Source of the DNA: Shackletoniella antarctica
Lineage (GTDB): Bacteria; Cyanobacteriota; Cyanobacteriia; Phormidesmidales; Phormidesmidaceae
Length of the DNA: 32,767 nt
Assembly (NCBI GenBank): GCA_003241845.1
Contig: QBMN01000031.1
Span: 1 to 32,767 of the forward strand
Reading direction: 5' to 3'
The notes under the pieces are model-generated. The model saw only the letters and a program-made list of their open reading frames with translations. It was not told where the DNA came from and made no database searches. Below are positions 1-30,774 of the stretch, in pieces; the first letter of the stretch is position 1, and each line of letters starts with the position of its first letter. The position numbers were made by a program, and so were the translations under genes.

Positions 1-106
1 GTGAAGGGGTAGATGGGGGGGCAAGGGCGATCGCTCTGTTTTGACGCTGCTGCTGCTTTTGCCCTCTTTATCCTAGCGAGCCAGGGAAAATGGAGCTAAT
101 TCATCG

Positions 107-182
107 CCCCTATCCCCTCACTCATTCACCCCTAACCCCATTAACCCATTTACCCCTAACTTATCTATTCCCTACTCTTCAC
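107..182. repeat. Heptamer-like C-rich tandem repeat (STRR-like)
   Basis: The stretch is built from imperfect 7-base units of the CCCCTAT / CCCCTCA / ACCCCTA / ACCCCAT / TTTACCC kind. It runs from about 107 into the last codons of the ribonuclease gene, whose stop is at 172-174. Heptanucleotide short tandem repeats (STRR) are a known class in filamentous cyanobacteria. The units are degenerate, so the exact boundaries are approximate. Confidence 0.5.
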
Positions 183-7223: not shown

Positions 7224-7601
7224 TCACCCCATCATCACTAAGTCAGGTCTCAGGTCACGGGCATCGCGCAGGTAAACATGCCGAATCTTAGGGTGAACGG
7301 CGGGAAGCTGCACATGCATCAGCACCCGAATGCAGCAGGGTAGACTGCCTTCCACATGCATATGCTGCACGTCGAGCAGGGGGATATTGTCCCATCGGGG
7401 GCGCTGGCGGGCGATCGCCGCCGGAAACGCCGCATCTAGGTCACGGGTGACCGAAAAAGTAGCGCTAATAATGCAGCTGGGGTCGAGCTGATTGCCCCGC
7501 TCTAGGGCATCCACCAGTTCTGTCACCGCCTCACCAATGGCCGCCTCGGTATTTTCTGGTACCGTCACTGCTCCCCGAATTGCCCACATTCGCCAGTCCA
7601 C
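7224..7601 (-). CDS. aroH: Chorismate mutase, AroH type
   Basis: The 125-residue protein belongs to the trimeric AroH (pseudo-alpha/beta barrel) family that converts chorismate to prephenate for Phe/Tyr synthesis. Aligned by eye with the Bacillus subtilis enzyme, Arg9 (R7), Arg65 (R63), Arg92 (R90 in CIRV) and Tyr110 (Y108 in RHVYL) are kept, as is the tail LRPDL. The position of catalytic Glu78 is His80 and that of Cys75 is Asp77. A longer frame reaches 7769, but a GTG at 7601 is preceded by GGAGG with 7-base spacing and gives the family's normal length; an ATG at 7589 is the alternative. The family call is firm; activity needs testing given the substitution. Confidence 0.9.
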   Translation of the reverse strand: MDWRMWAIRGAVTVPENTEAAIGEAVTELVDALERGNQLDPSCIISATFSVTRDLDAAFPAAIARQRPRWDNIPLLDVQHMHVEGSLPCCIRVLMHVQLPAVHPKIRHVYLRDARDLRPDLVMMG

Positions 7602-14251: not shown

Positions 14252-14935
14252 CTAAACCCCTATTGGTGCGGGCATGGGCAGCTCTTTGCGGCTGGTCAAT
14301 ACCCGGTCAATGAGGCCATATTCCTTGGCCTCTTCAGGCTTCATATAGAACATGCGGTCAGAATCGCGCATCAGCTGCTCGGCGGTCTTGCCGGTGCTCT
14401 TGGCCAAGATATCCATCATTGAGCGCTTGTTGTCAAGCACTTCTTTTGCCCGAATCTCGATGTCGCTGGCCTGGCCCTGGGCACCGCTGCGGGGCTGGTT
14501 GAGCACAATGCGGGCGTGGGGCAAACTGGCCCGAAAACCCTTGGTACCCGCCGCCAAAATCACGGCGGCAGACCCCATCGCCTGGCCCAGGCAAATGGTG
14601 TGTACCGGCGGCTTGATATAGTTCATGGTGTCGCAGATGGCAAAGGCTTCGGTGTCGAAGCCAATCATGCTGCCGTCGTACCAGGAGGTGCCGGTGGAGT
14701 TGATGTAGAAGAAAATAGGCTTATCGGGGTCGTCGAACTGCAAGAAGAGCAGCTGAGCAATAATCAGCTCGGTGACATCAATGCCTACCTGCTGCTTAAC
14801 GTCATCCCCCGAGAACAGGGGTAGGCCCAAATACACGATCCGCTCTTTGAGCAGCAAAGAGGGCAGATCTGGGGGCGGCGTGCGGTACGTCGCGTCGCCA
14901 TAGGGTGCCTGCACGGCTTTAATCTCTAAACTCAT
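14252..14935 (-). CDS. clpR: ClpR, non-catalytic Clp protease subunit
   Basis: The 227-residue ClpP paralogue lacks two of the three catalytic residues: the Ser position is Gly121 (GQAMGSAAV) and the His position is Asn146 (RIVLNQP), while Asp191 remains. It also has about nine extra residues in the YINSTGTSWYDGSMIGFDTE segment compared with ClpP. Both traits define ClpR of cyanobacteria and plastids, which pairs with ClpP3 in a mixed ring that is essential in Synechococcus elongatus. It is the first gene of the pair with the downstream clpP3. Start ATG 14935 gives MSLEIKAVQAPYGDATYRTPP, as expected for the family. Confidence 0.95.
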   Translation of the reverse strand: MSLEIKAVQAPYGDATYRTPPPDLPSLLLKERIVYLGLPLFSGDDVKQQVGIDVTELIIAQLLFLQFDDPDKPIFFYINSTGTSWYDGSMIGFDTEAFAICDTMNYIKPPVHTICLGQAMGSAAVILAAGTKGFRASLPHARIVLNQPRSGAQGQASDIEIRAKEVLDNKRSMMDILAKSTGKTAEQLMRDSDRMFYMKPEEAKEYGLIDRVLTSRKELPMPAPIGV

Positions 14936-16781: not shown

Positions 16782-18191
16782 CTAGGAATTTTGCTCCGAT
16801 GAACTGTAGATAGATGGGTCATGGCGTTCAAACTGTAGGGTGAAGCAAGTTTGCCAGAGCTGGCCGTCGCTGGGTTGACTTGATACCTTAATGGTGCCCT
16901 CCAGACGCTCCATTAGCCCACGCACCAGGGCCAGCCCGGTGCCCGTACCCGCAATACCTTCCTTAGTGGCCTTAGATCCCCGGCGAAACTGGTCAAAAAT
17001 GTGGGGTAAATCGTCGGCTTCAATGGCCATGCCTAGGTTGCTAATCTGTAGCGTCACTCGCCCGTTTGGGGTCTGGTTGTCGGCCAAGGCAAGGGTAATC
17101 ACCGTCTCGGGAGCCGAGTATTTGCGGGCATTCTCCAGCAGCTCTTGCACCACCTTAGTCAGGCTCTCTGGATCGGTAGCCAAGATTACTGGGGCAGCAG
17201 GCACTTGGCAATTGAGAGTGAGTTGCGCCTGTTGCCAGGTTTCCTTTGACTGCCCGGCCAGGTCGGTGAGCAGCTGCCCTAGATCAATAGACTGACCAAC
17301 AGACTGGCGGGCAACGGCATCGGGCTTAGCCCCCAGGGTTTGCAGCATCAGCAGGTCGTTAACCAGGCCAATTTCGCGGCTGCACTGCTGCTCCAAGATA
17401 TCTAAATACATGGCTGAGCGCTCTGGGGTGAGGTCGGGGCGGCGCAGCATGCGAATGGCCAGCATCATGCTGGTGAGGGGGGTGCGCAACTCGTGGTTGA
17501 GGGTGCTGAGAAAGTCTTCTTTGAGGTGCTGCAGGTAGCGCAGCTGCTCGGTGTGGCGCTGGGCCTGCCCCTGTAGGTATTGCTGGTGGAAGGCGATCGC
17601 CCCCAGGCTGGCCAGGTTAGCCCGCACGGTTTGCTCTAGCCCCAGGCCAGCCGCACCTAGCAGCAACATAGCTCCCTGCAAGCCCGACCCATCTACGGCG
17701 ATCGCCGTGGCGGCAGAAATAGATCGCAGCCAGATCGGGGGGCAGTTGTCTGCTTGCAGCAGCTCCGCCAGGCCCTTGCGCCAGTGACGCAAGCCCTGAC
17801 CCGACGCTTGGTCGAGGGTCTGCCCAATTAGGCCTAGGGCCACTCGCCGCTGCCAATCTAGCCGAGAGTCGGCCTCTGTCGCCCCCAGCCGATGGCAGGT
17901 GGGAGGCGTGCCCCGGTGCCAGCAGATATAGATGAGGTCGTTGGTGGCGGGGTAGTGGCACAGCAGTAGGCAGGCTCTGGCACCAAAATGTGTGCCCAGT
18001 ACCTCGGCTAAATCGGGCAGAGGGCTAGGGCTATTGAGGGTAGCGGCAAGGGCGTGAACCAGCGGCCAAGTTTCTCGATCTTCGGCACCCTCGCGGCCCT
18101 CGGCTAAGGGGGTGGGCCGCGAGGCCCCGGCGGATAGCATCCCCTCTAGCGGGCGGGCTTGGAACAAAACCGGCGAGTTTTCAGATGCCAT
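16782..18191 (-). CDS. Sensor histidine kinase with N-terminal GAF-like region
   Basis: The 469-residue soluble kinase has no transmembrane helix. Residues about 40-205 look like a divergent GAF sensor. A short coiled segment (205-225) leads to the dimerisation H-box NHELRTPLTS with phospho-acceptor His233. The ATPase domain has the N-box ELLENARKYS (350-359), F-box IFDQF (398-402) and G2 box GTGTGLALV (415-423). The G1 motif is ISNLGMAI (383-390) instead of D-x-G-x-G, a form I recall from other cyanobacterial kinases. No response regulator lies in the window, so it is an orphan. The divergent HerA gene lies upstream with a 318-bp gap. Confidence 0.9.
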   Translation of the reverse strand: MASENSPVLFQARPLEGMLSAGASRPTPLAEGREGAEDRETWPLVHALAATLNSPSPLPDLAEVLGTHFGARACLLLCHYPATNDLIYICWHRGTPPTCHRLGATEADSRLDWQRRVALGLIGQTLDQASGQGLRHWRKGLAELLQADNCPPIWLRSISAATAIAVDGSGLQGAMLLLGAAGLGLEQTVRANLASLGAIAFHQQYLQGQAQRHTEQLRYLQHLKEDFLSTLNHELRTPLTSMMLAIRMLRRPDLTPERSAMYLDILEQQCSREIGLVNDLLMLQTLGAKPDAVARQSVGQSIDLGQLLTDLAGQSKETWQQAQLTLNCQVPAAPVILATDPESLTKVVQELLENARKYSAPETVITLALADNQTPNGRVTLQISNLGMAIEADDLPHIFDQFRRGSKATKEGIAGTGTGLALVRGLMERLEGTIKVSSQPSDGQLWQTCFTLQFERHDPSIYSSSEQNS

Positions 18192-18509
18192 GGGCAGCCA
18201 TCGAGCGACATGTGCCTAATTTCCTCAGCCGAGGGCAAGATGTCAGCATTGCTGGTCTTACCCTCGACCTCCTTTAGCCTATCGACTCGATACCGGGGCA
18301 GTATCCGTGAATCCGCCAATCTTTCTACGGCCCTGCCGCCGAGGAATCCGCAATCTCCGCGTAATTGCAGCCGCTGTTTTATAGTCTCTATTACCTCTGC
18401 TCAATATTGCCCCTACCCTAATTTTCAGCAGGACATTAGTATTAATGAAGCCTGGGCCAAGATAGCGTGGCCCTGGCGAGGCGAACAGCGGTTTTTCAGC
18501 GGGGTTTCT
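18192..18509. other. Divergent intergenic region histidine kinase/HerA
   Basis: The gap between two divergent genes should contain both promoters. A frame open across it joins the HerA gene but overlaps the kinase gene and gives a sequence unlike HerA, so I treat it as non-coding. No RNA gene or repeat is visible. Confidence 0.45.
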
Positions 18510-20198
18510 ATGGCACGGTCATCAAAGCCTTCGGTATCGCCGGTCATCGGCACCGTCAAGGGGCCGGGGGAAGACGGTAACCAGTACTTATTCATTACTG
18601 CTGACAATCGCCAGGTCAAAATTGGCGAGTTTGTCTATTACTCGGTCGATCTGGCCGATACGCCAGGCGCTCAAATCTTGGGCAAAATCTCTGACCGCCG
18701 CCTGATTGACCACCTGCCCGATCGCCTCTTTGCTGACCCCGATATTGACCCCGAGGCGATCGCGGCCCTGGTCGGCTTTGCCCACCCCCACCCCGAAATC
18801 TACGAAGTCACCGTCGATGTGGTGGGCCACTTTCACCCCGCCCTCGGGTTTATGAACCCTCGCATTGCCCCAGACCCCGGCGCTAAGGTGCGCCTGGCCG
18901 ACGACGAGAGCCTGCGCCAGATTATCAACAAAAAACAGCGGGAAGAAATTGGCTCGGCCCACATTGGTTCCCTGCTGCTGCGCCCCGGTGGTCGGGTGCC
19001 CGTGACGCTGGATGTGAAAGAACTGGTCAGCACCCACATGGCGATTTTGGCGGGCACCGGCTCCGGCAAGTCTTACACTGCCGGGGTGCTGATCGAAGAA
19101 TTGCTCAGCCCCTATAACCGCGCCGCCGTGCTGATCTTTGACCCCCACGGCGAGTACGGCACCCTGGCCGACATGCGGGGCCACCCCAGCTTCGCCAGCG
19201 ATGACGGCTACAGCCCTGAGGTTAAGCTGCTCACCCCCGACGACATTCGCATTCGCATGTCGTCCCTCGACTACTACGACATTCTGACCCTGCTGCCGGA
19301 TATGAGCGATCGCCAGCAGGCCATTCTCAACAAGGCCTTTAGCCTGCTGGGCAAGCACAAGTTTGGCGAACACCGCTGGGACGTGCAGGATTTAATCTCG
19401 GCCTGCTACGAGTCAGACCGCAGCACCGATGACGAGGGCAACGAGAAAACCGGATCCTCGGCCCCGGCCCTGGAGTGGAAGCTGGGCAAACTGGAGCGAT
19501 CAGACTACTTTCACCGCGTGGAGCACCTGGCCCCAAAAGACCTCTTTGCCCCCGGCCAGGTAACGGTGCTGCAAATGAACGAGATCAGCCAGGAAGAGCA
19601 GCAGGTAATCTGCGCCGCCGTGCTGCGCCAGAGCTACCAGGCCCGCATCAACACCGCCAAGGACAAAATCTCTGCCGACGACGAAAACTACCTGCCCTAC
19701 CCGGTGTTTATTTTGATCGAGGAGGCCCACCGCTTTGCCCCGGCCAACGAACCGGCCCGCTGCAAGCAGGTGCTGCGCACCATTCTCAGCGAGGGCCGCA
19801 AGTTTGGCATGGGAGTAGGGCTGATCACCCAGCGCCCCGGCAAGCTCGACTCCGACGTGCTCTCGCAGTGCATGAGCCAGTTTCTCATGCGCATCGTCAA
19901 CCCGGTGGATCAAGATAGTCTGAAATACGGCGTGGAGGCCGCCGGGCGCGATCTGCTCAAAGAACTGCCCTCGCTGACCAAGGGCCAGGTGATTGTGTCG
20001 GGGGCCTGCGTCAACACCCCGGTGCTCTGCCAGGTGCGCCAGCGCCTCACTAAGCACGGCGGCGAAACCATGAATGCTCCCGAAGCCTGGATGAGTCATT
20101 TTCAGAGCCACCGCCAGCAGGCCCGCCAGCTCGAGAAAGCCGCCCCGGCCAGCCCCGGCAAAAAAGCCGAAACCTTCGGCGGGGTGAGTATTGAGTAA
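18510..20198 (+). CDS. herA: HerA-type hexameric DNA translocase/ATPase
   Basis: The 562-residue P-loop ATPase belongs to the HerA/FtsK clade. An N-terminal HAS-barrel (about 8-90) precedes the ATPase core with Walker A AGTGSGKS (181-188), IFDPHGEY (209-216), Walker B FILIEEAHRF (400-409) and the sensor-like LITQRPGKLD (438-447). HerA proteins pump DNA and in archaea work with the nuclease NurA in end resection; bacterial relatives occur alone or in defence operons. No NurA-like gene is adjacent. The frame extends to 18159 but that part overlaps the opposite kinase gene, and ATG 18510 starts at a typical N-terminus. smpB converges 17 bp downstream. Confidence 0.85.
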   Translation: MARSSKPSVSPVIGTVKGPGEDGNQYLFITADNRQVKIGEFVYYSVDLADTPGAQILGKISDRRLIDHLPDRLFADPDIDPEAIAALVGFAHPHPEIYEVTVDVVGHFHPALGFMNPRIAPDPGAKVRLADDESLRQIINKKQREEIGSAHIGSLLLRPGGRVPVTLDVKELVSTHMAILAGTGSGKSYTAGVLIEELLSPYNRAAVLIFDPHGEYGTLADMRGHPSFASDDGYSPEVKLLTPDDIRIRMSSLDYYDILTLLPDMSDRQQAILNKAFSLLGKHKFGEHRWDVQDLISACYESDRSTDDEGNEKTGSSAPALEWKLGKLERSDYFHRVEHLAPKDLFAPGQVTVLQMNEISQEEQQVICAAVLRQSYQARINTAKDKISADDENYLPYPVFILIEEAHRFAPANEPARCKQVLRTILSEGRKFGMGVGLITQRPGKLDSDVLSQCMSQFLMRIVNPVDQDSLKYGVEAAGRDLLKELPSLTKGQVIVSGACVNTPVLCQVRQRLTKHGGETMNAPEAWMSHFQSHRQQARQLEKAAPASPGKKAETFGGVSIE

Positions 20199-29604: not shown

Positions 29605-30774
29605 ATGAATCGATGGTTGACGGTTGATTTGATGCGGCTATGGCGCTGGGCGCGCCATTCCCAGAAAGGCGACTCGATTGGGCTAGGTCTTAGTCTCTTG
29701 CTATTGGGGGCCTGCGGGCAAGCCCAGCCCGGTGCCCCGGAGGGCCGCTCTCCCGAGGCCACCGCAATGCTACAGTTCATAAACCCTCAGCCCGTTGCCC
29801 TAGCCAGCGCCATGACTAATCCTCTGCTCTTCGACAGCGTTTCAGACTTTGCCGAGGGGGTGGCCCTGGTGCGGATGAAGTCGCAACTGGCCTACATCAA
29901 CCGCGACGGCCAGGTCAGCATTCGGGTGGCGGATGACAATGTGACCGTCGCCACTGACTACGCCGAGGGGCTGGCGGTGGCACAGGCGGGGGACTTCTTT
30001 GGCTACCTCGATCGCAGCGGCAGCTGGGGTATACCCGTACAGTTTCGCAAGGCCAAGGCATTCTCTGAGGGGCTGGCGGCGGTGCAGGGGGGCACCAAGT
30101 ATGGCTATGTCAACCCCCAGGGCGAATGGGCGATTGAGCCGCAGTTTGACCTGGCCGAGCGGTTTGTCAACGGTCGCGCCCTGGTCAAGCTAGAAGATGC
30201 CTACGGCTATGTGGACACCACAGGTCGACGGGTGGTGCCCCTAACGCTCAAAGACGCCTGGAGCTTTGCCGAATCGCTGGCGGTGGCGCGGGTCGATCGG
30301 CTCTACGGCTACATCAACCCCGATGGGGAGATGGTGGTTGCCCCCACCTACGACGGGGCCTTTAGCTTTGCAGAGGGGCTGGCGCGGGTGCGTCAGGGGC
30401 GTACCTTTGGCTTTATCAACGCTGAGGGCAAGATGGTGGTAGAGCCAACGCTGGCCTTTGCCTCAGACTTTTCGGAGGGGTTAGCCGCGGCGCTGATAGA
30501 GGGCCAGTGGGGCTACATTGACCCGACGGGCCGGGTGGCCATTGCCCCGCAGTTTGACTACGCCGCCGACTTTTCGGAGGGGCTGGCGGTGGTGCAAAAA
30601 GACGGGCGCTACGGCTACGTTAACCCCCAGGGCGAATGGGCGATCGCTCCCCAGTACGCCAACGCCGGGAGATTCTCCGAGGGCCGAGGCCGAGTGCAGA
30701 TTGACCACCGCTGGGGATTTGTCGACGCCGAGGGCAACCTGCTCAGCGGGGCCGGATTCAAGGATGTTGAGTAA
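29605..30774 (+). CDS. Lipoprotein with nine WG (KWG) repeats
   Basis: The 389-residue protein starts with a long basic N-terminus and hydrophobic stretch ending in LGAC, a lipobox with Cys37, so it is probably an exported lipoprotein. Nine repeats of about 34 residues run from about 75 to the end, each of the form F(S/A)EGLA-V-(x)n-GYINP-GE-(x)-I-P-F, as in the WG/KWG family. Such arrays form a beta-rich, likely protein-binding surface; none is enzymatic. The Shine-Dalgarno AAGGAG (29594-29599) is five bases before the ATG, supporting the start. The gene ends 43 bp from the convergent hydrolase gene. A 10-base tandem repeat GTCGATGGTT lies at 30800-30819. Confidence 0.88.
   Translation: MNRWLTVDLMRLWRWARHSQKGDSIGLGLSLLLLGACGQAQPGAPEGRSPEATAMLQFINPQPVALASAMTNPLLFDSVSDFAEGVALVRMKSQLAYINRDGQVSIRVADDNVTVATDYAEGLAVAQAGDFFGYLDRSGSWGIPVQFRKAKAFSEGLAAVQGGTKYGYVNPQGEWAIEPQFDLAERFVNGRALVKLEDAYGYVDTTGRRVVPLTLKDAWSFAESLAVARVDRLYGYINPDGEMVVAPTYDGAFSFAEGLARVRQGRTFGFINAEGKMVVEPTLAFASDFSEGLAAALIEGQWGYIDPTGRVAIAPQFDYAADFSEGLAVVQKDGRYGYVNPQGEWAIAPQYANAGRFSEGRGRVQIDHRWGFVDAEGNLLSGAGFKDVE

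Follow-up and report, generated by a model that had tools for sequence, protein, structure and literature searches.

The window, that is, the whole stretch of 32,767 nucleotides of Shackletoniella antarctica DNA analysed herein, carries a predicted AroH-type chorismate mutase gene whose product has His in place of the active-site Glu78 of the Bacillus subtilis enzyme, which raises the question of whether the protein still works as a mutase and, if it does, which residue supplies the acid. Chorismate mutase is a standard model of enzyme electrostatics in which Glu78 is counted among the catalytic residues. Published studies describe Glu78 of B. subtilis AroH as bonding the C4 hydroxyl of chorismate with the Cys75 amide alongside (PMC10782440), count Cys75 and Glu78 among the hydrogen-bonding residues with a salt bridge from Arg90 to Glu78 in the substrate complex (PMC5458464), and give Cys and Glu78 among the catalytic residues of 1DBF (PMC11796326). 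A paper of 2025 states that AroQ and AroH mutases repeatedly position a glutamate to meet the hydroxyl of the ligand, the contact being critical for efficient activity (PMC12329711).

The features of the locus are listed below, with residues of the window AroH numbered from its GTG start; family columns are given throughout in B. subtilis AroH numbering.

7224..7601, minus strand: aroH coding sequence, 125 amino acids plus stop (GTG start at 7601, stop at 7224; PF07736 and TIGR01796)
7359..7373, minus strand: motif Asp77-Val-Gln-His80-Met81, equivalent to B. subtilis Cys75-Met-Gln-Glu78-Met79 in gap-free sequence and structure alignments
7371..7373, minus strand: GAC codon of Asp77, at B. subtilis position 75; candidate for the relocated catalytic carboxylate
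7362..7364, minus strand: CAT codon of His80, at B. subtilis position 78; candidate neutral partner replacing Glu
7575..7577, minus strand: Arg9 (B. subtilis Arg7)
7407..7409, minus strand: Arg65 (B. subtilis Arg63)
7326..7328, minus strand: Arg92 (B. subtilis Arg90)
7272..7274, minus strand: Tyr110 (B. subtilis Tyr108)
7248..7250, minus strand: Arg118 (B. subtilis Arg116)

The translation of 7601..7227 (minus) reads VDWRMWAIRGAV...PLLDVQHMHVEGSL. It matched PF07736 (CM_1) at 148.5 bits against a cut-off of 27, as its sole Pfam match at E 0.001 and with no match to the AroQ family CM_2 (PF01817), and it scored 143.4 bits against a cut-off of 82 with TIGR01796, the curated AroH equivalog model. 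A GGAGG lies 5' of the GTG at 7601, and an in-frame TAA stands directly before the same GTG in five of the nine other same-genus loci inspected, which excludes a longer protein for those five; the GTG at 7601 is likely the start of the window gene as well. The neighbouring genes, for pyruvate kinase, a fatty acid desaturase, an S49 peptidase and an EamA transporter, are functionally unrelated. Within the genus, the median dN/dS of aroH was 0.057 (97 unsaturated pairs), indicating that the gene is under purifying selection. An AlphaFold2 monomer model built from a 68-row alignment reached a mean pLDDT of 95.2 and a pTM of 0.89 for a protein whose active site lies between subunits, and an alignment-free fold with a mean pLDDT of 53.8 was set aside. 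All 28 Foldseek matches of the model at E <= 0.001 were AroH chains or designed cages or crystals built on one, so that the protein as modelled has the AroH fold.

Structural comparison with VIA-align, with rows at Z < 8 (among them Rid/YjgF and FtsZ) treated as background, placed the model closest to known enzymes of this family. Against B. subtilis AroH (BsCM; PDB 1com, 2cht, 1dbf, 3zo8), chain 1com_C gave Z 21.2 over 119 residues with an rmsd of 1.6 and 40% identity; the two proteins share Arg7, Arg63, Arg90, Arg116 and Tyr108, whereas Cys75 and Glu78 of the B. subtilis enzyme are Asp and His in the window AroH. The AroH proteins of Thermus thermophilus (1ode, 1ufy) and Clostridium thermocellum (1xho) have the same fold (Z 20.2-20.7) and, unlike the window protein, retain Glu78 and have no Asp75; they illustrate that, alongside a retained Glu78, both Ser and Cys are possible at position 75, the Thermus PDB chains being Ser75/Glu78. 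The protein is hence an AroH that falls outside the B. subtilis-type (Cys75/Glu78) subtype because it has His at column 78.

The first-pass annotation, working by eye, had equated His80 with Glu78 and Asp77 with Cys75 and had noted that the equivalents of Arg7, Arg63, Arg90 and Tyr108 were kept, all of which was borne out, together with the Arg116 equivalent; it had set the change at 7359-7372, and the codons of Asp77 and His80 lie inside or touch that interval. A Glu in a shifted register was rejected, as phmmer against B. subtilis AroH and the MAFFT alignment were both gap-free at the site, and the structural alignment with 1com_C ran from 4..122 on 2..120 (119 residues) at a constant offset of 2. 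A base error or one-strain oddity was likewise rejected, since Asp75/His78 was present in 19 of 19 own-genus sequences, the window included; the 20th genome of the genus (G435) gave no AroH match.

In order to place these two columns in the family, 409 loci were collected, comprising the own genome (1), the PheA and TyrA loci, and the remainder from the own phylum, Bacillota and plasmids. The own-phylum loci were the 30 best of the phylum sample, 30 from the own family, 30 from a small-genome family, 80 chosen regions and 30 from low-scoring genomes. On the Bacillus side, 80 loci of named Bacillus relatives were supplemented from the phylum to which the Bacillus genome with L032 belongs, namely with its 30 best loci, 29 stretches taken from 26 genomes with low scores, and 60 further regions; this second phylum is called Bacillota herein because of L032, and 116 of its 289 genomes with a match were read besides the named ones. 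Seven actinobacterial plasmid loci, out of 11 matching plasmid records, were also included. No AroH domain came from L282 (PheA), L409 (TyrA) or L347 (a 30-residue fragment), and the remaining loci together with two reference chains yielded 410 domains, of which 402 (one per locus; 400 from loci and the two reference chains) had at least 95 residues; four other pieces do not span columns 75 and 78. The counts below describe the groups sampled (own phylum, Bacillota, the Thermus chains and the seven loci from actinobacterial plasmids). The sample is non-random: many loci were the top scorers of the search that yielded them, and the own family is represented more heavily than others.

Across the 402 domains, the residues at columns 75 and 78 were strictly linked. 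Glu78 accompanied a non-acidic residue at 75 in 235 domains (Cys 224, including both references, Gly 7, Ser 2, Asn 1, Thr 1), while Asp75 was combined with Gln78 in 126 and with His78 in 40. Both acids together (Asp75/Glu78) occurred once, in L354, a second case, L346, being a fragment, and no domain of at least 95 residues (0/402) lacked an acid at both columns. A carboxylate at 75 or 78 was therefore present in 402/402 domains, the window AroH with its Asp75 included, by a criterion derived from these same data, and column 78 was limited to Glu, Gln or His. When 80%-identity cluster representatives of the two kinds were compared (102 Asp75 rows with Gln or His78 against 161 Glu78 rows without Asp75), the Jensen-Shannon divergence was 1.0 at columns 75 and 78 only, with the next column at 0.76. 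Although the rows are related sequences, the comparison argues that the exchange is not merely background divergence. The first-pass annotation had allowed for a compensated active site, and this is well supported by the presence of Asp75 in 166/166 domains without Glu78, which makes Cys75 → Asp the likely compensation. Another nearby acid as the substitute was rejected: of the columns where half or more of the rows of one kind or the other are acidic, column 75 alone goes from 0.0 to 1.0. Columns 52 and 118 are acidic in nearly all of both kinds, and column 32 is acidic in 0.01 of the Glu78 kind versus 0.61 of the Asp75 kind, its commonest letters in the Asp75 Bacillota being Thr, Ile and Met. 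Columns 76, 65, 24 and 32 also differ between the kinds, and the pocket of the Asp75 kind may have changed in further ways as well, while Arg7, Arg63, Arg90, Tyr108 and Arg116 were kept in 156/156 same-class and 10/10 Asp75/Gln78 Bacillota sequences.

The distribution of the pair followed taxonomy within the own phylum. Asp75 was found in 156/156 sampled sequences of the own class, whose column 78 held Gln in 116, His in 40 and Glu in none, whereas Glu78 was found in 45/45 sequences from the other classes. The remark in the earlier annotation that cyanobacterial relatives vary at this column is thus right as regards Gln and His within the class and wrong if taken to include Glu there. The Gln78-type AroH of other families of the class share Asp75 and the Arg and Tyr residues with the window AroH and differ in having Gln instead of His. 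The 57 genomes of the own family yielded 54 AroH sequences, of which 53 were read (the short G428 match was omitted): His78 occurred in the own genus (19/19), g2 (6), g144 (8) and g146, g150 and g154 (1 each), and Gln78 in g3, g145, g147, g148, g149, g151, g152 and g153 (17 in all). Beyond the family, His78 was found in f2 (2/2), f9 (1/2) and f18 (1/1). Given that Gln and His at column 78 interchanged at least seven times on a quick tree of 264 rows and that their codons are one base apart (CAR → CAY), the His of the window looks like a later variation on the Asp/Gln site.

The genome supplied further context. The own genome (G000; 287 contigs, 4.71 Mb, 99.93% complete, 2.76% contamination) encodes one AroH, a prephenate dehydratase (PheA) and a TyrA-type dehydrogenase. 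The first-pass annotation had proposed looking for a second, AroQ-type mutase in it; a profile search with CM_2 returned no match in the own genome, with the control matched in 13 of 14 genomes. Considering the AroH and AroQ types, the window AroH is probably the sole chorismate mutase of its genome; PMC1173090 names AroR as a further type. Among 386 sampled genomes of the own phylum, AroH was nearly universal (373) and AroQ was found in 26 (25 above the curated cut-off), namely in 8 of the 13 genomes lacking AroH as against 18 of the 373 that have it (Fisher p 1.4e-7, a guide only, as the genomes are related). None of the six known His78 genomes in this sample (G000, G170, G135, G002, G118, G085) had an AroQ match, and Synechococcus elongatus, a named control, had an AroH match and no AroQ match. 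Five genomes of the phylum (G001, G026, G048, G050, G337) showed neither type at E 0.001, G048 being listed as 99% complete; their mutase gene possibly sits on a contig absent from the assembly, or they may rely on a mutase of a different type. Six genomes (G030, G125, G147, G183, G251, G382) had two AroH matches each, and both copies were read for G030 (L242, L243) and G251 (L193, L194) only. With a single AroH, no AroQ match, PheA and TyrA present, and purifying selection on the gene, the natural conclusion is that the window AroH is a working chorismate mutase.

As for how it would work, we consider it probable that the window AroH is a working mutase of a second natural active-site type, in which Asp75 replaces the carboxylate of Glu78 and Gln or His at 78 serves as a neutral partner; the catalytic acid has most likely been moved rather than lost. 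In the B. subtilis type, Glu78 accepts a hydrogen bond from the C4 hydroxyl of chorismate beside the backbone amide of Cys75, while the window type carries its carboxylate at 75 (Asp77) and a neutral side chain at 78, with the overall electrostatic arrangement presumably preserved by the unchanged arginines and tyrosine. Asp75 appears well placed for this role because its side chain starts beside the C4 hydroxyl, although the Asp side chain is shorter than that of Glu, which counts against a simple replacement. Since only Gln or His occurs at 78 in the Asp75 kind, this neutral or mostly neutral, hydrogen-bonding residue is suggested still to hold Asp75, Arg90 or the substrate. What the analysis shows is the sequence itself, the strict exchange across the sampled domains and the context of the genome; contact between Asp75 and the hydroxyl, a supporting role of Gln/His78 for Asp75, and normal activity are what we infer. 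In a genetic selection at Glu78 by Kast in 1996, an acid at either 75 or 78 was reportedly sufficient. A laboratory parallel is the B. subtilis mutant C88K/R90S (PDB 1fnk), in which an active-site charge is shifted by two positions within the same enzyme; in that case mutagenesis relocated a positive charge, whereas in the window AroH a negative charge would have been moved in nature. The mutant is said to have come from selection and to be active.

Four other explanations were weighed. The first, which we regard as unlikely, is a naturally slow mutase that no longer has Glu78 and gains little from Asp75, so that the cell gets by on the slow enzyme or with a partner protein. Changing Glu78 is described as lowering the rate in B. 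subtilis in PMC10782440 (citing Cload 1996), and the AroQ mutase of Mycobacterium tuberculosis is, according to PMC7762937, naturally slow and in need of a partner; however, a merely degraded site would not require the Asp75 found in every domain without Glu78, and the window AroH is the only mutase found in its genome. It is doubtful to a somewhat greater degree that His80 (Gln in relatives) is itself the hydrogen-bond partner of the hydroxyl, with Asp75 merely orienting His80/Gln or Arg90: column 78 is indeed not free to vary, yet it is Asp75 that is invariant among the 166 Gln78 and His78 sequences, while column 78 itself switches between the two residues. A function other than chorismate mutase, also entertained by the first-pass annotation and favoured by the exchange of a residue that is catalytic in the studied enzyme, is very improbable and found no support: the protein passes the equivalog model and keeps the other active-site residues, and its genome, although without an AroQ match, has PheA and TyrA, which act downstream of the mutase step. 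An alignment or assembly artefact has a negligible chance in the face of the gap-free alignments and the 19 concordant same-genus sequences, and nothing was found in its favour.

In terms of the family as a whole, we lean slightly towards regarding AroH as a two-state family, in which the hydroxyl-binding carboxylate can come from either of two positions. If the relocation of the acid to Asp75 is real, a whole bacterial class becomes a natural experiment on whether the essential feature is a negative charge near the hydroxyl, its attachment point being interchangeable. PMC5526877 lists Cys75, and not Glu78, as an adjacent-chain residue; if this chain assignment is right, the swap would pass the catalytic role between neighbouring subunits of the trimer. 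Among the titles and abstract openings listed by searches of the open full-text literature, a scope outside which most subscription papers lie, none describes a 75/78 swap; specialists may already have noticed it elsewhere.

Shared ancestry could explain much of the 75/78 pattern, because changes at column 75 were few and a single clade was not rejected. The best tree of 100 rows required four changes at column 75, one of them the Asp/Glu row L354, as judged from a larger tree. Asp75/Gln78 was found in 10 Bacillota domains, five of them divergent and inside the large same-class clade, and five in two other places; the best trees kept the latter as separate groups, L291/L302 and L388/L405/L406, and a careful tree joined the divergent five and the same-class clade (23 rows) with support of 99/98. 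In AU tests, a single clade for all Asp75 rows with Gln or His78 was not rejected at p-AU 0.517, the constrained tree being slightly better than the free tree; adding either Bacillota group to the large clade gave 0.408 and 0.314, neither rejected, and a clade of the same-class sequences alone was not rejected at 0.28. Judging from the 115 columns, a single origin of the swap with transfer and several origins would both fit. The divergent five (L332, L333, L341, L342, L343), which end in RPEW, have Asn at 106 and are about five residues shorter before the YLR motif, adjoin the small-genome family f20, a placement that may reflect either transfer or long-branch attraction.

The extant codons are single-base neighbours: TGT/TGC (Cys), GGT/GGC (Gly) and GAT/GAC (Asp) at 75, and GAR → CAR (Gln) → CAY (His) at 78. 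One of the seven Gly75/Glu78 domains has a GGA codon. The path C75/E78 → G75/E78 → D75/E78 → D75/Q78 → D75/H78 could thus be walked without an acid-less enzyme, the path being one of extant neighbours rather than a reconstructed lineage.

The window contains several other features. A ClpP-family protein is encoded at 14252-14935 (minus; NCBIfam PRK12552, 413.1 bits); ClpP-like subunits that lack the catalytic triad occur in cyanobacteria. The window also encodes EbsA, a type IV pilus protein. EbsA and the PRK12552-type ClpP are cyanobacterial types, which points to a cyanobacterium of the photosynthetic class as the source and agrees with the view of the first-pass annotation. A protein with seven WG beta repeat stretches was matched at 29605-30774 (plus; PF14903, 279.7 bits). 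A protein with a HerA-type helicase domain (18159-20198, plus; DUF87, 167 bits), whose ORF is taken from a TTG, shares 33 bases with the beginning of a divergently oriented ORF for a histidine kinase (16782-18191, minus), and because of this overlap the true start of one of the two probably lies further in.
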